A DNA stretch of 64,000 bases from a virus. Below are positions 1 through 29,247 of this stretch, piece after piece (position 1 is the first letter of the stretch; each line of letters begins with the position of its first letter). Location of the stretch: positions 35,282 through 99,281 of the IMG/VR virus record IMGVR_UViG_3300030099_005086. The stretch is one strand, 5' to 3'. A program made the position numbers and the translations under genes. A model generated the notes under the pieces. It did not search any database. It saw only the letters and a list, made by a program, of their open reading frames with translations, and was not told where the DNA came from.

Positions 1-3000
1 CCTCAACCACTTGATCAGAATGTAATCTTAATCCTCTATAGTATAATTCTAATGTAGGTTGAATAGTTAAATAATCTATAGGTGCTGCAGTTTCTATTAT
101 CTCTTGACTAGCTTCATTTTTTATTTGATTAACTTGTTCTTCATTTAAATAAAAAGATCTTTCGGGATTAAGCATTTCTGCATATTCAAATACTGCATCT
201 TCTAAAACTATATTAGGATTAGCAGTTTTATCTGCAGTTTTAAGCTTAGTTCTATATATATTTATAATTGCACCTATAGCTCTATTCTGATCTTCTAAAG
301 GCATAAACTGAGGAATAGTAACTTCTACAACATCTCCTTCTTTTGTTTTCTTTTCTACAGTTTTAGTATCTAATAGTATAGTTGCTGGAGCATCTATTGT
401 AGCACCATTTAATGTAGCATTTGTAAATCTATTACCAACAACTGTTGATCTTCTATACTTACCAGAATTTATATTTCTAAATAAACTTTCTAAATCAGAC
501 TGTGTAAATCTTTTAAAAATGTTCTTGATTATTTCTATAATTCTAGTAAATAAACTTTTAACTTCAGAAGATGTGTCAACTGTAGAAGGATTATTTACTT
601 TAAACTCTTGAAACTTATCAGCTAAATATTCTTCATATAATCTTTCTGTAAGTTCTTCCTTAGACATATTATTATACACAGCACTAGAAGCTCTTAATTC
701 TTTTAGTGCTTGTGCTAATGTTTTACCTTCAGATCTAAGTTTAGCTCTTACTTCTTTTCTTGCAATATTTAAAAACTTGTTTATTTCTTGATCAGATAAT
801 AATGTTCTAAATACACCATGAAAAGCTTCATGATATTTAAATGGTAAATTTTCACCAGTAAAAATCACACCTTCAACACCTTCTATACCAGATGATATAT
901 CTTTTAATGATAAAGTAAATTGTCCAACAGTAACACTATTATTATAAAGTTTAAGTTGTAATTGATTTATATCATCAACTGAAATAAAGTCTGGTAAGTT
1001 TTCTTTTGTCCATTTAATAAACTCTTGTAAATCTTCTATGTCTTGATAACCATAATCATCTAATACTTTGTATGGTATTGTTTTTAAAGCACCACTGCTA
1101 CTTTGTAATTTTTTAATCTCTTCTTCTATAGGTTGAACAGATAGTTTAGCAATCTTCACAGATTCTTTATTTGCTTCAGCAAGACTTTTACCTTCTTCAA
1201 TTAATCTAGCTTTTTCAGCTTTTGCTACACTATCAAACTGTTTATTTAATTCAAGACGTAAATCATTAAGTTTTTGTACTCTACTTTGTTCTGCAGACTT
1301 TTGAGGTTTTATAGGTGTCTTTTTATCTTGTTCTCCTTGAATATTATTAAGAATGGCAACAAAATCTTCTTGTCTATTTTCAACAACCTCAGCCATTCTT
1401 GTAGTAATATCATTACCTTGTGATACTTCAAATGCAATTTTTTCAATAACATCAGTAGGTACATTTGTAAAATCATTTTCTAAATATGATTCAAAATCAT
1501 CATCAGAAATATCTGATAAATCTGTATCTATAAGTTCTTGAAGTTCACCTAAATCACCATCATCTTTTTTCTTTTCTACTTTAGGTTCTGCTATTTTAGG
1601 AGTTTCTACTACACTTACATTAGGGATTTCTAAATAAGGTATTAAATTGTTTGAATTTGTAGATACTTGTAAACTTGCATTCTTTCTAATTCTAGACTCA
1701 ACCTTTGTTTGTGCCTGACCTAACTGCTCAAGAACATCACTACTAACAATAGACTTAGGTATTGTTACACGAAAATCATCTAATGTAACTTTTAATTCTT
1801 TACCATCTGCATCTAATATTCTTGTTTTATTATTTTGTTGTGGTCCATTATATACTGCAATACTAGAGTTTATTAATGCTACTAACTTATCTATATTACT
1901 AGCATCTTTAAGTTGTTCTAGTATATTTTCTTGTTGACCTCCAACATTTATAGTTCTTTTGAATATATCTTTACCAGACTTTCTAGTTCTATCTAAATAT
2001 TGAATTTGAAAATCTCCAGATGGTGCAACCTGTATTGTTAATGTAGAACCTATTTTAGATGCTAAATATAAATTATCACTAATTCCAGCATTGAAATCAT
2101 TATTATAAGTAACATCATTAATAGTTGGTACATCTTGATCTTCTACTTCAGTTCTATTATTTTCTCTAGTCTCTTGTATTCTATCTATTATACTTCCTGC
2201 TAACTCATTAGCTTGTGTTAATGACATCTTAGCAGGAGTTAATTCTATAATACTAACTGTCTCATTAGGTAATTTTACAATTGCTTTATATCTACCTTTA
2301 TTTTTTAAACTATTAGGATTAGTACCAGCAGATTGAGTTGCTAAAAATTCATCTACTTGATCTTGTAAGCTTTCATATTCTGCAGATGACTTATCCATAT
2401 CTGTAATTATATTAGCTAAAACTTTATTCTGTTGACCAGAACTCCAGTTGCTTTTATAATCAAGTATGTAATAATTACCATCTATTGTATTATGTTCTAA
2501 CTCATCAAATGTAACACCATTTTTACTGTAAGCATATTGACCTGGTGTATTAATTAAATTGATACCCATTTCTTCTAACTGTTCTACAGTTGTTTCTACT
2601 TCAGCACTATCACCTAAAATTTTTGTAAATGTATCAGATACAAATAAACTTGTTGCATAATTTTTTCTAATTAAATCTGCAGAATCAGCTTTTGATAAAC
2701 TATCATACTTAGTATAGTATTTAAATAATTCATTTTCATTTAAAGATAATATATTTACTTGCTTACCATTATTATCTATAGGAGTTAAAGTAGTTGGTTG
2801 ACTTAAATAACCAAGTATTGTATCACCTAATGTTACCTCTATTGTAACAGGTTCACCTGTTTTTTTCAATAAAGGATTTTCTATATATTCTCCTTTTTGA
2901 AAAGAATCTAAATCTTTTAATTGTTCTTCTTGAACTTGTCTAAAGTCTGGATTTTTTCTAACTGTAAAAGTTATTTGTTTTCTAGATGACTCTGTTAAAT

Positions 3001-6000
3001 TATTTATAAAATTACTTAATCTAAGAAATGCATCATTATATGTTTCACCTTCTTCTACTCTAGGATATATTTTAACAGTATCTGTAGGTAATAATTTAGA
3101 TATAGGAGCTGTAGGATCTATTTCAAAATCATCTATTCTTTTATATTTATCTGTAAATCCAACTTCTTCAATTATTAAATTATCTCCATCTGGTTGCTCT
3201 ATCTCACGTACATATATATTATTATATTTATCTACCGTTTTAGGTTTAGACATCACAACATATTGTTGACCGTTATCTACACTTTCTATAACAGCACCAT
3301 AATTTAAATCAACACCATCAAATGGAAAAGGGGTTTCATCTGGTAATAGCTTTTTAACAATATAATCTTTTGCTTTATTAGCAGCTCCTTCAGTAGAATA
3401 TACTTCTTCTAATCTTGATGGTGCTTCTTTCTTATATGTAAGAGAAAGGTTATTACCATCAACATCTTCTATTGTATATATATTTTCTACTGTTTGTGTA
3501 ATTTGATTTGTGACAGCATTCTTTACAACAAAGACACCAGACTTATCATTAGGATTTAAAACTTCAGATGTTGCACCAACTCTTTTTTGTTTTGGTGTAG
3601 CTTTCTTACCACTAACATCATTAATTTTTAAATTGTACTTACTTAATATATCATCTACTCCTGGATTTCTTTCATTAGCTGCAACCCATGCACGTAATCC
3701 AACATTAGGTTGATCTTCTTCTGCAACTTCATTTTGATATAATTGTAGTAATTCAAAGTTAGCTTTTTTAATTCTTACTGCTTCTGTACTATTCTGCCAA
3801 TCTTGTGCTTTAGGTATTGGTGCTCCCTCTTTTGTTTTTTGTTTAACAAGCTTGGCATACTTTTTTCTTAATGCTTCAGTATTAGCTTCTTCAAATCTTT
3901 CTGAATTTTCAACAGCAGCTTCATTAAAGTCTATATCTTGAGGAGATTCAGTTATGTTATCAACATCAACATTTAACTCATCTGTTTTTTCTTCTGCTGC
4001 TTCAATAGCTTTATCAAAATTTATTGCTGCCTCTTGAGCTTCTAATTCTGTTGGTGCTATAGCTATTACAATACCTTCAGGACTAACAACAGCAAATCTA
4101 CCATCAGCTTGTTGTATTACAATATGTCTATCTTCATCAGACTCTATTGATAATAATCTTCTATAATTTTTAAATAAATCTTCTTTTTGATCAAATAGTT
4201 TTTTATCAGTAAAAGAATTTAGTGGGCCATCTTTAGTAAAGAATAATGTAGGCTCTATATCATTTTCAAAAAATTCTATCAGCTGCTCTTCTTCTATATA
4301 TAAACCTATATTTGCTAATGCATTTATTAATTCATTTTTTTCTGTTAAGTTTATATATTTCTTTAAAGCTCTTTCTGTAGTTTCTTTTCTTTGATTAAAT
4401 ATTTTTGCAAATACTGTTGCTAATCTATCACTAGCTAAGATCATATTTTCAGGATTCATAAGAATATCAAATGCCTTTATATAATCTTCTTGTCTACCAT
4501 TTAATGTCTTATGATCTACAATATCTTTTAATAAATCATTAAAATCTTGTTTTGCAATATTTAATATATCATCTTGTGTATCTGCAATATGTTGTAAATA
4601 TTCTTTTACAGGTTTTTGCAGTTTGTTTATTTTAGATCTATTAAATCTACCTTCTTTTGTTTGATTAGATGGATCATTTAATACATTAAAATAATTATTA
4701 AGAAACTTAAGTCTATTTTGTTTATCTTCTTTTATACGTTTACCTTCAGCTGAAGTATCATCTAAAGTATCTATTTCATCCTGTAAGAGTTCTATTTCTT
4801 GAATTAATTCTTTTTTGTTTAATAATACATCTAAATCTTTAGCAGACATTTTAGATACTATAGGATCTTGTGACAGTCTAGTATAAATAGAATTTATTCT
4901 TTCTAAAGCACGTTCAAAAGAATCTTTAGTGAAGATAGCTAAATTTTTAGCTTCATTAAATGCAATCTCATTTATTGCCTCTTTATTGTATTCTCTTGTG
5001 CCTGGAGTAAACTTAGTAGCATCATAAGGATTTATAAATTTATCATTTACATAAGTATGTGATGCTTCTATTTGATCCATTCTTTTAATAATATCAGATA
5101 GCTCTGTTCTTATTTTTACAGGATTACTAATACCAGCTACATCTCTATAAGCTTCTACAAGTTCAGAATCTTCTAGTTTTAAATTATCTTCTATTTGATC
5201 TTTTAACTCAAATAATTTACCACTACCAACAACTCTATTTATATCTCTAAATAAAGATGCATCTTTTGTATCATAAAATGCTAAAGGATCACCGTTAAGT
5301 CCTGCAATATTTAAATCAGTATTAAATCTTTTTTGTTCTGTTAAATTAAAAGCTTCACTACCAAAATATTTAAATGGATCATTATTAACTTTATTAGCTG
5401 ACTCTACAAGTAAATCTACATACTTTTCTTTTTTATCTTTATATTCTTGATATGCTTTTGGATCTGTATATTTTTTATACAAATTAGGTAAACCTTGAAA
5501 TAAACCTTTTTGTGCAACTTGCACAGGACCTGCCATAAAGAAACCAGATAAAAATGTTTCTACACCTTGTCCTGATAATTGTGAATTAACACCTTCACGT
5601 ACTGCAGCAGCTATTTCTTCTCTTCCTGCTAATGATGGATCATTAAATATATTTTTATAATATTGTTCAACACCTACTGCAGTTGCTTCTTGAAAAACTT
5701 CTTGTAAACCTTCTGCAATATTAGCAGATGTATAATTTAATAAACCTGCACCAAATGCTTTTGCTCCACCCTTGGCTCCAAGATTATAAAATCTTTTTGG
5801 AGCTAATCCTTTATTAGCACTAAATGCATTTTTAGTTACATTTTTATTTCTTAATACTTGACTACCTACACCTTTAGTATATCTATCTATTGATCTACCT
5901 AAAGATTTAGGAAAACCTTTTAAAGCTGTACCTATAACTAACCTATTACTTAATGCAATAATAGGTGTATTAATCATAGTTGTTGTAAAACCTGCTTTGT

Positions 6001-7294
6001 AAGCTTGTGTATTTATATTTTGTAATGATTGTGAATCAGGTATCATACCTGTATTAGAAACATACTGATTATATAAATCATTATAAACTTGATTTTGAAC
6101 TAAACCACCTTCTAATTTACCTTCAGCTACTGCTAAGTTTAGTGCTCTAAGATCTCTATAGAATGCACCAAACACTTTATTATTTTTTGCTAAGTTACCT
6201 ACATTCTTTGCTACACCTAAACCAGATTTCCAATTTTTAATTAATGCAAAAGTTTCTGGTGCTATTGTTGATGCAACAAATCTTCCACCTGCATTAAATA
6301 CATCTCTAGCTCTTTCTACATTTTTTAAATCTCTTAAAAAGTTTGCTGATGTTTTAATACCTCTAGTTATTGTATAACCGTCTCTTATTCTTTTAGGTAT
6401 ATCTGCTAACCTTTTAATATTATAACCTGTTCTTGCTATAGCTAAGGGAGCAGCAGTAGTACCACTAAGTGCAGTTACACCAGCTAGTATAACTTCTTCC
6501 ATAGCAATATTACTTATAATACCCATAGTATAGGCACTATTAAGAAGAAAGTTATTTGTAAATCCACCTATACCACCCTTTTGAGATGAACCTATTCTCA
6601 TAGCATCTTCAAAAGCATAACCTAATTCAGGATCACCTGCAAAATATTCTTTACCACTAAATAAATCTCCTAAAGCTCTATATCCAGATGTAAATGCATT
6701 TCCAAACAATTTCATATATTGAGTACCCATTCTTTGAAATTCATCAAATGCAGATGCGTTTGTATTATAATAATCTTCATTATTTATATAGGGATTAAAA
6801 CCTAATTCATCAAAATTTGGATGTTTATAATATCTATCAAAGTTTGAAACCTTTTCTCCAAATGAAACTGTTAAATTACTTTTAAGTTTATCATTAGGAT
6901 TATTAGATATATTATTGCTAATTGCATTAAGTTCTTTTTGAAATTGTGTAAAAGAATTATTATTAAGACCTTCAACTTGTTCTGCAGGATTATATGTTAA
7001 ACCTGCTACACCAGGATCAGAACTTGTTGCATTAACTGGACCAGTCAAATCAAACTGATTAATAGAATTATTATAAGGAGCCATAGCATCCGTATATACA
7101 TTCTGTAATATATCTAAATCAGAACCTGGTACAGCAAAATTAGAAGTAGCAAATTCAAAATCATCAAATACAGAAGTAAAGTTAATGCTATTATCACCAT
7201 CAAATAAACTATTTAATGTAACTTCATTTGTATTTATTGGCTGAGATTGTGAAGTAGTTTCTTCACCTGGAATATTTATTAAATTTTCTGCCAT
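1..7294 (-). CDS. Giant putative internal virion protein with HEAFH metallopeptidase-like motif (partial)
   Basis: An open frame starts at ATG 7292-7294 (MAENLINIPGEE) and runs without a stop off the left edge, so at least 2431 residues are present and the C-terminus is missing. About residues 245-285 and 580-600 are hydrophobic and Gly/Ala-rich; the rest alternates between charged helical stretches and acidic linkers. At residues 2155-2159 the sequence reads HEAFH inside KYHEAFHGVFRTLL, a zincin-type HExxH motif of a kind I associate with very large phage proteins. It is the last gene seen in the leftward structural arm, 2 bases after the 1031-residue gene. In crAss-like phages giant proteins at this place are carried in the virion and some are RNA polymerase parts. 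I looked for a DxDxD polymerase motif in the visible part and found none, so the polymerase idea is not supported here. Confidence 0.8.
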   Translation of the reverse strand, partial: MAENLINIPGEETTSQSQPINTNEVTLNSLFDGDNSINFTSVFDDFEFATSNFAVPGSDLDILQNVYTDAMAPYNNSINQFDLTGPVNATSSDPGVAGLTYNPAEQVEGLNNNSFTQFQKELNAISNNISNNPNDKLKSNLTVSFGEKVSNFDRYYKHPNFDELGFNPYINNEDYYNTNASAFDEFQRMGTQYMKLFGNAFTSGYRALGDLFSGKEYFAGDPELGYAFEDAMRIGSSQKGGIGGFTNNFLLNSAYTMGIISNIAMEEVILAGVTALSGTTAAPLAIARTGYNIKRLADIPKRIRDGYTITRGIKTSANFLRDLKNVERARDVFNAGGRFVASTIAPETFALIKNWKSGLGVAKNVGNLAKNNKVFGAFYRDLRALNLAVAEGKLEGGLVQNQVYNDLYNQYVSNTGMIPDSQSLQNINTQAYKAGFTTTMINTPIIALSNRLVIGTALKGFPKSLGRSIDRYTKGVGSQVLRNKNVTKNAFSANKGLAPKRFYNLGAKGGAKAFGAGLLNYTSANIAEGLQEVFQEATAVGVEQYYKNIFNDPSLAGREEIAAAVREGVNSQLSGQGVETFLSGFFMAGPVQVAQKGLFQGLPNLYKKYTDPKAYQEYKDKKEKYVDLLVESANKVNNDPFKYFGSEAFNLTEQKRFNTDLNIAGLNGDPLAFYDTKDASLFRDINRVVGSGKLFELKDQIEDNLKLEDSELVEAYRDVAGISNPVKIRTELSDIIKRMDQIEASHTYVNDKFINPYDATKFTPGTREYNKEAINEIAFNEAKNLAIFTKDSFERALERINSIYTRLSQDPIVSKMSAKDLDVLLNKKELIQEIELLQDEIDTLDDTSAEGKRIKEDKQNRLKFLNNYFNVLNDPSNQTKEGRFNRSKINKLQKPVKEYLQHIADTQDDILNIAKQDFNDLLKDIVDHKTLNGRQEDYIKAFDILMNPENMILASDRLATVFAKIFNQRKETTERALKKYINLTEKNELINALANIGLYIEEEQLIEFFENDIEPTLFFTKDGPLNSFTDKKLFDQKEDLFKNYRRLLSIESDEDRHIVIQQADGRFAVVSPEGIVIAIAPTELEAQEAAINFDKAIEAAEEKTDELNVDVDNITESPQDIDFNEAAVENSERFEEANTEALRKKYAKLVKQKTKEGAPIPKAQDWQNSTEAVRIKKANFELLQLYQNEVAEEDQPNVGLRAWVAANERNPGVDDILSKYNLKINDVSGKKATPKQKRVGATSEVLNPNDKSGVFVVKNAVTNQITQTVENIYTIEDVDGNNLSLTYKKEAPSRLEEVYSTEGAANKAKDYIVKKLLPDETPFPFDGVDLNYGAVIESVDNGQQYVVMSKPKTVDKYNNIYVREIEQPDGDNLIIEEVGFTDKYKRIDDFEIDPTAPISKLLPTDTVKIYPRVEEGETYNDAFLRLSNFINNLTESSRKQITFTVRKNPDFRQVQEEQLKDLDSFQKGEYIENPLLKKTGEPVTIEVTLGDTILGYLSQPTTLTPIDNNGKQVNILSLNENELFKYYTKYDSLSKADSADLIRKNYATSLFVSDTFTKILGDSAEVETTVEQLEEMGINLINTPGQYAYSKNGVTFDELEHNTIDGNYYILDYKSNWSSGQQNKVLANIITDMDKSSAEYESLQDQVDEFLATQSAGTNPNSLKNKGRYKAIVKLPNETVSIIELTPAKMSLTQANELAGSIIDRIQETRENNRTEVEDQDVPTINDVTYNNDFNAGISDNLYLASKIGSTLTIQVAPSGDFQIQYLDRTRKSGKDIFKRTINVGGQQENILEQLKDASNIDKLVALINSSIAVYNGPQQNNKTRILDADGKELKVTLDDFRVTIPKSIVSSDVLEQLGQAQTKVESRIRKNASLQVSTNSNNLIPYLEIPNVSVVETPKIAEPKVEKKKDDGDLGELQELIDTDLSDISDDDFESYLENDFTNVPTDVIEKIAFEVSQGNDITTRMAEVVENRQEDFVAILNNIQGEQDKKTPIKPQKSAEQSRVQKLNDLRLELNKQFDSVAKAEKARLIEEGKSLAEANKESVKIAKLSVQPIEEEIKKLQSSSGALKTIPYKVLDDYGYQDIEDLQEFIKWTKENLPDFISVDDINQLQLKLYNNSVTVGQFTLSLKDISSGIEGVEGVIFTGENLPFKYHEAFHGVFRTLLSDQEINKFLNIARKEVRAKLRSEGKTLAQALKELRASSAVYNNMSKEELTERLYEEYLADKFQEFKVNNPSTVDTSSEVKSLFTRIIEIIKNIFKRFTQSDLESLFRNINSGKYRRSTVVGNRFTNATLNGATIDAPATILLDTKTVEKKTKEGDVVEVTIPQFMPLEDQNRAIGAIINIYRTKLKTADKTANPNIVLEDAVFEYAEMLNPERSFYLNEEQVNQIKNEASQEIIETAAPIDYLTIQPTLELYYRGLRLHSDQVVE

Positions 7295-25213: not shown

Positions 25214-26128
25214 CTAATAAATATTTACAGGTGGATGACTTCTAAACATATCATAATACTTATTATATTCTGCTCTTCTACTAACTTCATAGAACTTTCT
25301 CATTTCTTCAAAGTTTGGGGTATTAACAAAACCTAAAGCATTGTTTCTAGCTGCTCTTAATCTTCCTTCTATTAATCCTAATTGTTGAGATACATTTTCT
25401 CCAGCAAATAACATATTTTCTAATATTCTTTGTTTAAGAGCATACTCATAATATTCATTACAATAAGGATGATCTAATACTAATAAATCACCAGCAGAAT
25501 CTTCCATAGTAGCTTGATAACTCATATATACTGTGCCTGTTGTAAAAGTAGTTAATAAGTATCCATCTTTTATCTCTGCTTGATTATGAGATGTTGTATT
25601 TAAATTAGGACAATCACAATCAACATGACTTGTTTCTGTAATGCGTAAAGGATAAAATCTTGTATATGTTCTATACTGAGTAGGACTATATTTTTGCACA
25701 ACCATATACTCTGATTTAAATGTTACACGTCCTTTACGGTCTTCTTCAGGACAAGTTTTTATTGTACATACATCTTTACACTCTGGATCTTCACATGGTC
25801 CTTGCTCTCCTGGTGCAGGAGTATATTTAGCTTGAGTAGTATCTATATGTGTACCACTAGGAAAAGCTTGAGATACTTGATAATCATCACAAACAAAAGC
25901 ATAATTTAATGTATAAAAATCTGAAGGTAATTGACCTTTACCATGTTCAACATCTACTATTACCTCTTTAGTTCTATTTATTCTTAACCCTAAATCATAG
26001 TTAACCCTTATAGCTACCTTTATTAATTGTTGAGGTTCTACCATACCCTCTAAAGCATATGATTGAAAATCAACAGTTACATCTTCTAGAAGTTGATCAA
26101 ATGTTCTATATTTATGTGATACACTCAT
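25214..26128 (-). CDS. Tail ring / tail-tubular-like structural protein
   Basis: This 304-residue protein begins MSVSHKYRTFDQLLEDVTVDF. It has a helical N-terminus (FDQLLEDV...LIKVAIRVNYDLGLR), a central beta region with a Cys-rich insert (CEDPECKDVCTIKTC) and a helical C-terminus (YEYALKQRILENMLFAGEN...LRAARNNAL). That helix-beta-helix layout suits stacked tail-ring proteins of short-tailed phages. The six closely spaced cysteines could bind a metal. Its start overlaps the stop of the 223-residue gene by one base, and the giant tail gene follows after 10 bases, so the three are probably made together. The ring role is inferred from layout and context. Confidence 0.65.
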   Translation of the reverse strand: MSVSHKYRTFDQLLEDVTVDFQSYALEGMVEPQQLIKVAIRVNYDLGLRINRTKEVIVDVEHGKGQLPSDFYTLNYAFVCDDYQVSQAFPSGTHIDTTQAKYTPAPGEQGPCEDPECKDVCTIKTCPEEDRKGRVTFKSEYMVVQKYSPTQYRTYTRFYPLRITETSHVDCDCPNLNTTSHNQAEIKDGYLLTTFTTGTVYMSYQATMEDSAGDLLVLDHPYCNEYYEYALKQRILENMLFAGENVSQQLGLIEGRLRAARNNALGFVNTPNFEEMRKFYEVSRRAEYNKYYDMFRSHPPVNIY

Positions 26129-26799
26129 TATCTATGGGGATTTAATTTATTATCAGAATCTTCAGATGGTATTTGCAATGTATTTAAAATTATTTGTAAC
26201 ACTTGTTGTTCTATCTCTGCAAATAAAAATTCAGGTACATTAAAAGGTTGTTCACGTCTAGGAAGACAATCATCAGATTTATCACATGTATAAGTAGAAA
26301 TATCTTCTTGAAATACTCCTTCTAATTTAATTGCATCCCACTCTACATTAGGTAAATATATGTGACCATTAAGAAACCAATAGTATTTATTATTATTATA
26401 TCTAAAAGATGTAGTCTTAGTCATTGAGGCATATGTACCAGGATAGGTAGGTTGCACCTCTATAGATCCATCTAATGAACTAATAGTTCTAATTAGTGGT
26501 CCCCAATAACCTTCAAAAAATGTAGGTAGCTTATGTTTTGTTCTTTTAATTTTAACACCACTTCTAATACCACTACATTCTGCTTCTACTTTATCTACAT
26601 CAATTAATTCAAGAAGAGGTAAGGTTTCCCAAACACTATTAAACTTAATTAGTTTGTTTGCATTATCTTGTCTTCTCATTAATAACTGAGCAAACTTTAA
26701 AAGTAAACTGTAAATATATCTATCTGTTACAAAAGCATCTTGAACCTCTGCTTTTACTTGACCTCTTACTCTAGAAATAACATCACCTATTTTTGTCAT
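26128..26799 (-). CDS. Tail ring-like structural protein
   Basis: This 223-residue protein starts MTKIGDVISRVRGQVKAEV. An N-terminal helical segment (YIYSLLLKFAQLLMRRQDNANK) precedes a mainly beta body with aromatic strands (NNNKYYWFLNGHIYLPNV) and a final helix (EFLFAEIEQQVLQIILNTL). This resembles the small ring proteins encoded just before the large muzzle gene in crAss-like phages. The start overlaps the end of the 178-residue gene by 17 bases and its stop overlaps the next start, typical of a tightly translated cluster. No catalytic motif is seen. Confidence 0.6.
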   Translation of the reverse strand: MTKIGDVISRVRGQVKAEVQDAFVTDRYIYSLLLKFAQLLMRRQDNANKLIKFNSVWETLPLLELIDVDKVEAECSGIRSGVKIKRTKHKLPTFFEGYWGPLIRTISSLDGSIEVQPTYPGTYASMTKTTSFRYNNNKYYWFLNGHIYLPNVEWDAIKLEGVFQEDISTYTCDKSDDCLPRREQPFNVPEFLFAEIEQQVLQIILNTLQIPSEDSDNKLNPHR

Positions 26800-27319
26800 T
26801 GTTCTGTTTTTTATACATGTCTGCTACTCTCAGTTTATTTTTCATCACAATATACTTTTTCCAATTCTTAGGATAAAGTTTTGCAACTGCTCTTTTAAAC
26901 TGTCTTATGGCAACAAACTGCCAAAGTTCTCTATTTTTAAAACGGTACTTAGTAGAGTAGTTAGTATAAAAAATCTTTCCAATGTTTCCATCTGTATCCC
27001 AATTTTTATTTTGTATAACCTTACCATACTTTTTAGATAAAGCATAATCAGTATTTACACTCTTTGGAGATGGACATGTTCCTATAAATAAATAACCTAA
27101 TGAATCAGGTAATTGAACTCCATTTCTATTTTTTATTACATTCTCCCACACTTTCCCATTAAAACATTTTATAATGTTCTTTAACTTAGTATTATCAATA
27201 TCAGAATATATAGGATATTTATCCTTAAATTCTTCTATTAAACTATTATTTAATAATCCAAATACCTTCTCTCTATATCTAGGTTTATTTAAGTTAGGTA
27301 TTTTAAAATTATTAATCAT
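26783..27319 (-). CDS. Conserved-looking phage protein of unknown function
   Basis: This 178-residue basic protein starts MINNFKIPNLNKPRYREKVF. Visible segments that look conserved are GVQLPDSLGYLFIGTC, KIFYTNYSTKYRFKNRELW and a Lys/Arg-rich C-terminus ending in KKQNNDKNR. I have an impression of similar proteins between tail genes of other crAss-like phages, but I cannot verify it and know no function. The basic, aromatic composition would allow nucleic-acid binding. It overlaps the following ring-like gene by 17 bases and is separated from the metallophosphoesterase gene by 56 bases holding a candidate promoter. Confidence 0.6.
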   Translation of the reverse strand: MINNFKIPNLNKPRYREKVFGLLNNSLIEEFKDKYPIYSDIDNTKLKNIIKCFNGKVWENVIKNRNGVQLPDSLGYLFIGTCPSPKSVNTDYALSKKYGKVIQNKNWDTDGNIGKIFYTNYSTKYRFKNRELWQFVAIRQFKRAVAKLYPKNWKKYIVMKNKLRVADMYKKQNNDKNR

Positions 27320-27330
27320 ACTTAGTATAC

Positions 27331-27350
27331 ATTATAATTTACAAAAAATA
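27331..27350 (-). promoter_or_regulatory. Candidate minus-strand promoter element
   Basis: On the minus strand the gap before the 178-residue gene reads TATTTTTTGTAAATTATAAT. Nearly the same string (T-run, TTTTGTA, then ATTA) occurs before the genes starting at 32886, 38058 and 53014. The four sites lie about 12-45 bases upstream of start codons. It does not fit the Bacteroidetes TAnnTTTG box exactly. Because the DNA is very AT-rich, chance resemblance cannot be excluded. Confidence 0.35.
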
Positions 27351-27375: not shown

Positions 27376-28557
27376 TTATTCAGGAGAGTAAGTTAATTCA
27401 CATATTTCACCTTTATTTGGAGAATGTAAAGATAAAAGTCCTGATCTTCTTGATCCTACAAACTTATTATGATAATGATAATAATCTGTTCTAGATAAAC
27501 TAGGTAGAATTTTCATCATAAATCCAAAGTTATCATGCTGTGTAACATATTCAATTTTTTTCTTATGATGCAAGTGACCAGTATGTAGTATTCTAAACAT
27601 TGTATCACCCCATTGTTTAGGAAACTCCATAGAATATAATAGTAAAGAATTTTTAGTATTTACATCACCATGTTCAAAAGCAAAAAAGTTATCTCCATAT
27701 GTATGCACTTTTCTTTCTAAATAAACTACATCCCAAAGAATATTTGGATTATCAAAACATTTAGATAATGCATGAGCTAAATGAAAAGAAGATAATCTAT
27801 CATGATTACCTGGAATATATATAACTTGCAACTCATCACAGTATTGTTTTAAATAATTAATACTCCAATGTAAAGCATCAAATGCTTGTACATATGCTTC
27901 AGTAGCTGTCATACAATTATCTAAAGGAGTGCCTGATGTAGTAGTACCACTCCATGTATCCATATTTATTAAATCACCACCAACTACATAAAATAATTTT
28001 TCTAAGTGATGTGAGTTTGTTGCTCTATCTATTAAATCTATAATGGTTTCTTCAAAGTCTTTATCTATAGTTTCATTACCCTCTTTACCAAAATGTATAT
28101 CCTGTAAAGACAAAACTCCAGCTGTTTTAGTTTTGCCTGGAGTTTTTATTCTTTTTGGTATCTTAAAAGTTTTAGGTTTAAAATTCTTTAAAAGCTCTTT
28201 AATATCACTTATCTCATCTGCTTTTAATTTTGTAACCATTGCAGATACTCTCCAATGATCTCCCATTTGTTTATTCCAATAACTTGAAAGTTTCCATTGA
28301 GTTGTATCTATTTTTAATAGATCTATTATTTCTTCAGGAGTTTTTGGTTCAGATGAACATACAGCTTCTAACTTTGCTTCTCCTTTTTCTAAATTATATT
28401 CATATGAAGAGTTTCCTCCTTCTACTGTATCAGTAGATTTAATCCAAGACTTTAACTTTTCATAATCATCTACTGTTATACCAAGCTTTTCAGCTGAATA
28501 CTCAGAAGATTTTTTCCATTTAAATGATTGTTTAACTCTTTCTATAAATGAGTCCAT
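27376..28557 (-). CDS. Calcineurin-type metallophosphoesterase (SbcD/Mre11-like)
   Basis: This 393-residue protein holds the full set of metallophosphoesterase motifs: DIH at 153-155, GGDLIN with Asp195, PGNHD at 249-253, EHGD around 295-298 and GHLHH at 327-331. The family uses two metal ions to hydrolyse phosphodiesters or phosphomonoesters; DNA exonucleases such as Mre11/SbcD are one branch. Residues 1-130 are an additional, mainly helical N-terminal part resembling a small DNA-binding region (LGITVDDYEKLKSWIK), not present in minimal enzymes. It lies within the tail gene block, downstream of a terminator, which is an unusual place for a nuclease. The fold is firm; the substrate is unknown. 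Confidence 0.85.
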   Translation of the reverse strand: MDSFIERVKQSFKWKKSSEYSAEKLGITVDDYEKLKSWIKSTDTVEGGNSSYEYNLEKGEAKLEAVCSSEPKTPEEIIDLLKIDTTQWKLSSYWNKQMGDHWRVSAMVTKLKADEISDIKELLKNFKPKTFKIPKRIKTPGKTKTAGVLSLQDIHFGKEGNETIDKDFEETIIDLIDRATNSHHLEKLFYVVGGDLINMDTWSGTTTSGTPLDNCMTATEAYVQAFDALHWSINYLKQYCDELQVIYIPGNHDRLSSFHLAHALSKCFDNPNILWDVVYLERKVHTYGDNFFAFEHGDVNTKNSLLLYSMEFPKQWGDTMFRILHTGHLHHKKKIEYVTQHDNFGFMMKILPSLSRTDYYHYHNKFVGSRRSGLLSLHSPNKGEICELTYSPE

Positions 28558-28593
28558 AATAAATTTTATTTAAAAATTGTGAGCAATATACAT

Positions 28594-28626
28594 AAAAAAA
28601 AGAAAAGGTCCTAACAAAAGGACCTT
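28594..28626 (-). terminator. Rho-independent terminator after the FN3-like gene
   Basis: Read on the minus strand, AAGGTCC (28626-28620) pairs with GGACCTT (28611-28605) over an 8-base loop and is followed by TTC and a run of eight T. It lies 46 bases after the stop of the FN3-like gene at 28672 and ends the transcript carrying the fibre genes. Confidence 0.85.
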
Positions 28627-28671
28627 CTCCCACCAAAAGAGTAATGTAAAACCAACAAAATCACTACTACT

Positions 28672-29247
28672 TTAACTTTTTGTTTTAGTAAAAATGGTAA
28701 CTGAATCAGCAGGTGTTGTTGAAATAGTTGTCACTTTTACTCTATATGTTGTGTTACTTTTTAAACCTACAATATTAAAAGATGAAACATTAGATTTTAA
28801 ATTTTCTGCACCAGGTGGTATTATAAATGAAGGATCACTTTTACCAGTGTTTCTACCTCTACCAGCTTCTGCATATTGTACTTTTACACCAGTAGCATTT
28901 TGAGGAACTCCAGCCCATCTTACTTCAGCAGATGATCTTGTTGTATTTCCAGATTGTACATATTGTACTGCATTTTCTGCAGTGCTTGCATTTCTAGAAT
29001 ATAAAGCCATTTTTTGTAATATCCCTCCCATTCTTTCACCATTAGCAATTGTCATTCTACCAGTTGCTTGTGAACCTACTTCAAATGAATCACCACAATC
29101 AACAACACAATCAATACAAATAGTTTCTGCACATGTTTCACCTTTACCATCTGTACAAGAAGAATACACACATGGTGTAGATAGACCTATATCTTTACAT
29201 CCACATGAAACTTTACTACAATTACTTGAATTACAATTACAATTCAT
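28672..29247 (-). CDS. Small fibronectin type III-like surface protein
   Basis: This 191-residue protein begins with a Cys/Asn/Ser-rich segment (MNCNCNSSNCSKVSCGC) holding about a dozen cysteines in the first 60 residues. A helical stretch follows, then a beta-rich C-terminal half with SSAEVRWAGVPQNATGVKVQY and GLKSNTTYRVKVTTI, which matches the tryptophan strand and the closing strands of an FN3 domain. FN3 domains are common on phage surfaces and help adhesion. It follows the fibre gene after 18 bases and is closed by a strong terminator, so it is probably an appendage or decoration protein co-expressed with the fibre. FN3 is likely; the role is inferred. Confidence 0.6.
   Translation of the reverse strand: MNCNCNSSNCSKVSCGCKDIGLSTPCVYSSCTDGKGETCAETICIDCVVDCGDSFEVGSQATGRMTIANGERMGGILQKMALYSRNASTAENAVQYVQSGNTTRSSAEVRWAGVPQNATGVKVQYAEAGRGRNTGKSDPSFIIPPGAENLKSNVSSFNIVGLKSNTTYRVKVTTISTTPADSVTIFTKTKS

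Follow-up and report, generated by a model that had tools for sequence, protein, structure and literature searches.

The metallophosphoesterases SbcD and Mre11 act together with SbcC and Rad50. In phages, relatives grouped in PHROG 704 are present in hundreds of records, where they are frequently annotated as 'DNA repair exonuclease', with a presumed nuclease role; examples are Tunavirus Shfl1 p67, Webervirus KOX1 gp35, Bonnellvirus J8-65 gp23, Lillamyvirus gp01 and Leptolyngbya phage Lbo-JY46 XAI97391. A metallophosphatase in crAss-like phages is already in print: in the part of the paper available to us, 'MPP metallophosphatase' appears in the crAss-like gene-conservation pattern, listed beside replication and nucleotide genes (Yutin et al. 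2021, PMC7886860). The available part of the report on mycobacteriophage A10ZJ24 describes gp48, a metallophosphoesterase with five motifs that was shown to be a nuclease (PMC12287305), and the available part of the review PMC10136315 contains nothing on the metallophosphoesterase gene.

Here we analyse a metallophosphoesterase (MPE) gene in a stretch of 64,000 nucleotides, referred to as the window, from a virus record of 110,739 bases. Judged from its sequence, the record is crAss-like, because its matches to CrAss_Ring_1, CrAss_Ring_2, Crass_capsid and a portal of the P22 type all exceed the cut-off. We suggest with moderate confidence that MPE is a DNA-binding nuclease of the Mre11/DP1 type that would act independently of SbcC and would be encoded by an exchangeable cassette before the tail-ring operon.

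Reading frame, motifs and predicted domains

The MPE gene (window 27376-28557, minus strand, 393 amino acids, PHROG 704) is a single intact open reading frame with an ATG start; the plus-strand reading of the same interval is full of stops. The sequence-only reading, which gave no strand, had described the gene as complete, with five intact active-site motifs and an extra N-terminal part of some 130 residues, and in all this it was right. The motifs, all on the minus strand, are DIHFGK (motif I, residues 153-158, 28084..28101), GD (II, 194-195, 27973..27978), GNHD (III, 250-253, 27799..27810), HGD, or (E)HGD (IV, 296-298, 27664..27672), and GHLHH (V, 327-331, 27565..27579). Eight metal-binding or catalytic residues, D153, H155, D195, N251, H252, H296, H328 and H330, are identical in every one of 112 aligned proteins (the window MPE and 111 relatives, rows shorter than 370 amino acids having been dropped). 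By its five metal-binding motifs with intact ligands the protein belongs to the calcineurin-like superfamily. The Pfam Metallophos model gives a weak match below its cut-off (12.5 bits against 21.5); the superfamily call is made because of the motifs, the PHROG and the fold, the Pfam score being a detection score and not a structural feature.

The PHROG 704 profile, 'DNA repair exonuclease', matches residues 7-393 over its full length (profile positions 11-387 of 390, E 2.9e-45), and MPE is a new member of this widespread phage family. A tblastn search with MPE gave matches in 929 of 50,697 phage records, all of them below 60% identity. PHROG 704 is the best match of all eight relatives scanned, and the same five motifs are present in the four relatives that were aligned (Lbo-JY46, Lillamyvirus, iLp1308 and S-CBS2).

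The dN/dS ratio of MPE is 0.026-0.118 in 21 close pairs, and the gene is under strong purifying selection; equal-length genes were compared unaligned in this calculation, and a value of 1.26 for the downstream gene g26783 (L120/L121) is an artefact of that. The composition of MPE is the phage's own: its GC content is 28.7% (GC3 12.9) in a window of 30.0%, and its codon usage does not fall outside that of the 23 further genes for which it was computed.

A host-derived gene was considered and rejected, as a scan of GTDB species genomes produced three loci only. The two closer matches (56% and 48%) come from metagenome-assembled genomes, in which they lie on contigs of 114.7 and 8.4 kb that we take for presumed phage contigs; the third is 23% identical over part of the query.

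About 142 residues precede the motifs. They are predicted to form a helix-turn-helix of three helices (residues 1-46, 28420..28557, from an AlphaFold2 model of the N-terminus alone) and a small alpha/beta domain (residues 51-125, 28183..28407), followed by the calcineurin-like, Mre11-like catalytic core (residues 143-393, 27379..28131), all on the minus strand. The order of elements in the alpha/beta domain is strands, helix, long beta hairpin, helix, and the hairpin carries the near-invariant residues W94-N95-K96-Q97 and W102. The whole-protein AlphaFold2 model is fair (pLDDT 75.6, pTM 0.63), with pLDDT below 50 at residues 332-337 and 357-369. The N-terminus modelled alone is better (pLDDT 82.0, block values of 79-91 over residues 1-40), with helices at 2-14, 18-25 and 29-45. 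Its best PDB match is an ACT-like domain at E 6.6e-3, with nothing at 1e-3, and a description as helix-turn-helix plus ACT/RAM-like domain is only a guess from the model.

No Pfam family matched the N-terminal part of the window MPE. In three of the eight relatives scanned, the N-terminus contains named DNA-binding Pfam families over the cut-off, all different: Sigma70_r4_2 in KOX1, GcrA in iLp1308 and HNH_repeat in Tunturi_3. Because of these three, a DNA-binding N-terminal part appears to be a repeated theme across the PHROG 704 relatives, with its kind varying.

Structural comparison of the whole protein with the PDB by Foldseek gave E. coli SbcD as the best match (E 1.4e-5) and Vps29, a retromer subunit, as the second (E 1.6e-5). 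The best VIA-align match is the archaeal PolD subunit DP1 (Z 14.2, 229 aligned residues, 4.0 A), tied with Mre11 (Z 13.9, 190 residues, 3.1 A), and the lipid pyrophosphatase LpxH is near these nucleases (Z 13.0). As modelled, the fold matches do not cleanly set nucleases apart, since the scores of Vps29 and LpxH are similar. Against a library of viral models, the ten best matches are phage proteins where named, most of them having no named function, and two are named 'DNA polymerase II small subunit'. The best match in a PDB sequence search has E 0.22 and is a chance match. NCBIfam produced two weak matches, one of them to the DP1 subunit (E 6.8e-4, 18.7 bits against a cut-off of 445).

The local gene block and its transcription signals

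The sequence-only reading had placed the gene between FN3/fibre genes and ring genes, and this place is confirmed. Upstream is the gene of an FN3-domain protein (28672..29247); downstream follow the conserved g26783 (26783..27319, 178 amino acids), tail ring protein 2 (CrAss_Ring_2, 26128..26799) and tail ring protein 1 (CrAss_Ring_1, 25214..26128), all on the minus strand. Searches with g26783 found nothing in Pfam or PHROGs, and only a chance match in PDB sequences (E 0.14). Its profile matches a 169-residue protein encoded between Ring2 and Ring1 of Lbo-JY46 (hhalign 87%, E 4e-6), which in turn shares phrog_12177 with crAss001 gp42, annotated as HU/IHF-like. Direct hhalign comparisons of g26783 with crAss001 gp42, phi17:2 gp045 and crAss001 gp39 gave probabilities of 1.8, 3.0 and 0.1%, and the apparent link to gp42 depends entirely on the intermediate Leptolyngbya phage protein.

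Elsewhere in the window, positions 2-7294 of the minus strand are covered by one open-ended reading frame of at least 2431 codons that runs off the window; lists of closed reading frames show these 7.3 kb as empty. Stop-codon recoding of 1-7294 was rejected, as this frame is open under the standard code.

An intrinsic terminator, a 13-bp stem followed by a T run, lies between FN3 and MPE (28600..28631, minus strand). Terminators were found in 58 of 63 dissimilar FN3-MPE gaps of relatives, compared with a mean of 0.1 and a maximum of 1 in 20 shuffles; a looser count of 169/188 rests on a redundant set, and 58/63 is the figure to use. Between MPE and g26783, just upstream of the latter, there is a conserved promoter-like element TTTTTGTAAATTATA (27333..27347, minus strand). 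Its core GTAAATTA is present in 35 of 37 dissimilar MPE-g26783 gaps (0.3 in shuffles), and the 16-base form has one exact copy in the 110.7-kb record. The element may be a promoter or a protein-binding site. Because the terminator and GTAAATTA are conserved in the respective gaps, MPE appears to be transcribed separately from FN3, and the ring operon has a promoter-like element of its own. On the other side of MPE, none of the 37 dissimilar MPE-g26783 gaps contains a terminator by the strict criterion (33 of 209 redundant gaps do by a looser one). Therefore read-through from MPE into the ring genes may occur, and late expression would be compatible with these signals.

Upstream of MPE there is a weak promoter-like sequence TTTATGTATATTGC (28583..28596, minus strand). 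The Bacteroidetes-type promoter consensus is TAnnTTTG, and this box is moderately enriched upstream of MPE (33 of 132 unique upstream regions, 12.4 in shuffles); the window's own copy is TATATTGC.

Promoter class was considered as a timing signal and rejected. Exact copies of the box precede two early-strand and three late-strand genes, where the early strand means the plus-strand genes to the right of window 58.9 kb, with timing assumed from orientation, and the timing of MPE cannot be read from the box because both kinds of gene have it. Moreover, according to the available part of a study of crAss001, its middle and late genes presumably rely on the RNA polymerase of the host (PMC8375218), and therefore the promoter box does not fix the timing of MPE.

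Conservation, absence and exchange of the gene

Three sets of loci, with contigs overlapping among them, were compared: the best 80 of 159 relatives from an MPE-led IMG/VR scan, the best 80 of 136 from a Ring2-led scan, and the best 80 of 98 from a scan with a broader Ring2 profile. Adjacency was counted only among open reading frames with a match to any of 15 window proteins. In the MPE-led set (best 80 of 159), the first recognised gene upstream of MPE is FN3 in all 77 loci with enough sequence; the first one downstream is g26783 in 79/79, followed by Ring2 in 78/78. The neighbourhood comparison that the sequence-only reading had proposed thus gives the order FN3-MPE-g26783-Ring2 wherever the sequence reaches. 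Because this order is kept in the relatives, MPE is no random insertion; the signs of one named beforehand, absence from relatives and a host-like composition, were not seen, the place being fixed in relatives and the composition phage-like.

MPE lies within 1 kb upstream of Ring2 in 78 of the 80 Ring2-led loci (best 80 of 136). The two exceptions, L133 and L151, are close relatives in which FN3 is followed directly by g26783, MPE being cleanly absent and the gaps being 130 and 93 bp. Such clean absences form natural with/without pairs for functional comparison. With the broader Ring2 profile (best 80 of 98), MPE was found in 58 of 80 loci, 57 times within 1 kb of Ring2 and once at 1.2 kb, and the other 22 loci do not contain it.

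The upstream regions of 19 of these 22 loci were listed; a family search was made for the adjacent frame of L202, and the rest were viewed by eye. In L202, a distant crAss-like record, a 508-residue protein is encoded just upstream of g26783 (L202:3039-4565). It matches RNase_H_2 (22.7 bits, cut-off 22) and, more weakly, a PolB-exonuclease-like family, and in this single case the slot would hold a different putative nuclease.

Some other loci deserve mention. The record IMGVR_UViG_3300030098_004828 (245,646 bases) contains two Ring2 loci of the same clade (L120 and L137) about 129 kb apart, and possibly represents two genomes joined in assembly. In L033:10478-12709 and L037:2545-4863, Ring2 and Ring1 do not overlap or adjoin, but are separated by about 2.2-2.3 kb, with an insertion inside the ring block.

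When 24 whole records lacking MPE at the site, many of them fragments, were searched, three proved to encode a PHROG 704 protein at another position. In L259 the neighbours of the homologue are on the opposite strand and include an HNH match below the cut-off and frames that we read as thymidine kinase and helicase. In L260 it is no more than about 4 kb away from genes for ThyX, RecA and PD-(D/E)XK, and in L261 it is beside a small frame at the edge of a plus-strand gene block. The homologue is among replication-type genes in two of these three crAss-like records. No PHROG 704 MPE was found in crAss001, Cellulophaga phage phi17:2 or csAssE-Sib. In Lbo-JY46 it is located directly before Ring2, the sole such case among the phages viewed; in a 61%-identical relative (L096 and L262, the same record) the next frame resembles the Lbo-JY46 Ring2 by eye. 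Lbo-JY46 also has a second gene, annotated as calcineurin-like phosphoesterase (L101:7708-8526, PP438436.1 57707-58525), near AdoMet-MTase and NinG genes.

Outside the crAss-like phages, ten regions were surveyed. In three of them (Lalka27a, KOX1 and J8-65), genes for polynucleotide kinase, dNMP kinase/nucleotidase, exonuclease or endonuclease VII are nearby; in KOX1 the polynucleotide kinase gene is the immediate neighbour, and in J8-65 it is two genes away. The PHROG 704 gene is near lysis genes in Shfl1 and near methyltransferase genes in Lillamyvirus, S-CBS2 and V16; in iLp1308 replication genes are found further upstream. In PAU its neighbours are small unknown genes and the distance to the major capsid gene is about 2.3 kb, and in Tunturi_3 it is followed by a gene annotated as virion structural protein, with endolysin-annotated genes nearby. 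The neighbours are varied and therefore the place is not constant family-wide.

In the 71 loci with all genes complete, MPE is either 76-81% (23 loci) or 54-66% (48 loci) identical to the window protein. The mean identities of Ring2 (70.1 vs 69.7%) and Ring1 (64.1 vs 62.6%) hardly differ between these groups, and g26783 partly follows them (75.5 vs 69.9%). The near group is one clade on the MPE tree (SH-aLRT 99), but not on the joined tree of g26783, Ring2 and Ring1. The latter was built from the window and 131 non-identical loci with these three genes complete and MPE, if present, of at least 370 amino acids; loci with no detectable g26783, L179-L181 among them, were dropped. Forcing the clade was rejected (p-AU 2.4e-5) in a test on 51 of the 132 rows, namely all 21 of class A (at least 72% identity to the window) and 30 hand-picked of the 91 of class B, where class A was set after the identities had been seen and the conflict between the trees was already visible before the test. 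A history shared with the tail genes, as in crAss-like virion structural proteins, was thus not observed for MPE. Synonymous distances deviate in both directions: MPE is closer than Ring2 in L008/L015 (0.54 vs 1.79) and more distant in L148/L156 (0.33 vs 0.05).

These comparisons suggest that MPE has a history of its own and has been exchanged between lineages at an unchanged site. It can, then, move independently of the surrounding structural genes, and therefore its location among tail genes says little in favour of a virion role.

Proposed function and comparison with known systems

According to the reading that we favour, the helix-turn-helix and the alpha/beta domain (residues 1-125) would guide the catalytic core to DNA, and the core (143-393), a two-metal phosphodiesterase of the Mre11/DP1 type, would cut or trim ends, branches or single strands. 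This could take place while DNA is being replicated, recombined or handed over to packaging, or be directed against host DNA, and would require no phage SbcC/Rad50 ATPase. The gene would form a self-standing cassette, bounded upstream by a terminator and downstream by the tail-ring operon's promoter-like element, that is selected for and swapped between lineages at a fixed site. MPE is probably not a virion component; we infer this location, as well as the nuclease activity, the DNA substrate and the timing.

Several observations do not sit easily with a nuclease cassette. The second Foldseek match is Vps29, LpxH reaches Z 13.0, and the whole-protein model is only fair. MPE is beside Ring2 in nearly all Ring2-led loci (78/80, best 80 of 136), and this constant place could reflect a functional link to the tail or to packaging. 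Finally, no strict terminator follows MPE, and g26783 partly follows the MPE groups.

As a separate candidate, the role of a stand-in proofreader was rejected: DNA_pol_A and DNA_pol_A_exo1 were found in 0 of 18 MPE-carrying IMG/VR records. A family-B polymerase (DNA_pol_B) gave a weak match in 16 of the 18, one of them over the cut-off.

A serious rival, although in our estimate an unlikely one, is a nuclease of counter-defence or host takeover, expressed soon after infection, that would break host DNA or inactivate a defence and be swapped between phages as hosts change. An exchangeable cassette at a fixed site would fit it, as would the second of the weak NCBIfam matches, in which the model is that of an anti-phage phosphoesterase (E 3.6e-4, 19.5 bits against a cut-off of 420), whereas PADLOC gave no match for the window MPE. 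The available part of the A10ZJ24 report describes gp48 as a nuclease that is expressed early and disrupts the DNA of the host (PMC12287305). However, the conserved-motif aspartate of gp48 is at residue 10, and because of this gp48 presumably has no N-terminal domain; it may also be of another family than PHROG 704.

The sequence-only reading had favoured a virion or late-stage function, such as DNA end processing or nucleotide clearance, 'rather than replication'. Its DNA-processing part is plausible; the rest had been deduced from the place of the gene. In such a role the protein would be made late with the ring genes and reside in the particle or act at the portal on DNA ends. This is possible but improbable, and its support does not go beyond place. 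Points in its favour are the constant position before g26783-Ring2-Ring1, the direct proximity to Ring2 in Lbo-JY46 and, by eye, in L262, the link of g26783 to an HU/IHF-like protein, the lack of a strict terminator after MPE, and the structural annotation of the next gene in Tunturi_3. Against it speak the terminator upstream of MPE, the separate promoter-like element of the ring genes, the conflicting trees, the absence of MPE from close relatives that keep the same block, and the homologues located elsewhere, among replication-type genes in two crAss-like records. Virion proteomics, suggested earlier as a check, was not found in a form useful for MPE in the available parts of the flavobacterial phage papers PMC7077304 and PMC8776804.

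Less likely than the nuclease, counter-defence and virion readings, and doubtful in itself, is a phosphatase that heals nucleic-acid ends together with kinases, for example by removing 3'-phosphates or cyclic phosphates. The polynucleotide kinase genes near the KOX1 and J8-65 homologues and the rank of LpxH close to the nucleases are in line with it, but these phages are only distantly related, none of the window proteins scanned against Pfam matched a kinase family, and the best single fold matches are DNA enzymes.

Very improbable, finally, is a homing-like or competition nuclease that, guided by its helix-turn-helix, would cut co-infecting crAss-like genomes lacking MPE or carrying another version at the FN3/g26783 junction: if true, it would explain the fixed site, the clean empty sites (clean presence and absence at one intergenic site, as in free-standing homing nucleases, is seen in L133 and L151) and the swapping against the neighbours' tree, and the N-terminal part in Tunturi_3 is a homing-endonuclease-associated repeat, but no broken copy occurs among the 112 aligned proteins (rows under 370 amino acids dropped), dN/dS is low, and MPE is present in 78 of 80 Ring2-led loci (best 80 of 136). 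To our knowledge, no homing-like or competition role has been described for the Mre11/DP1-type fold.

Returning to the favoured DNA-binding nuclease, we compare it with the described systems. With SbcD/Mre11 it shares the catalytic fold, although Vps29 and LpxH are close, and the metal motifs, and it differs by its own N-terminal part and by its partner: an SbcC-type AAA_23 family was found in 0 of 19 MPE-carrying genomes, some of whose records may be incomplete, with 14 of 14 controls positive. As modelled, MPE may work like the nuclease of Mre11, but it lacks the partner ATPase in the same genome that marks SbcCD. The archaeal DP1 is the best structural match, tied with Mre11, whereas the curated NCBIfam model is far below its cut-off and the polymerase accompanying MPE in 16 of 18 records is a weakly matching family-B one. 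The gut crAss-like 'MPP' is likewise a metallophosphatase, likened to MPE by its description in the available part of PMC7886860 and not by sequence. The PHROG 704 proteins of other phages differ in their varied neighbours and in sequence (24-30% identity to Lbo-JY46, Lillamyvirus, iLp1308 and S-CBS2), and agree with MPE in the full-length profile match and in all five motifs.
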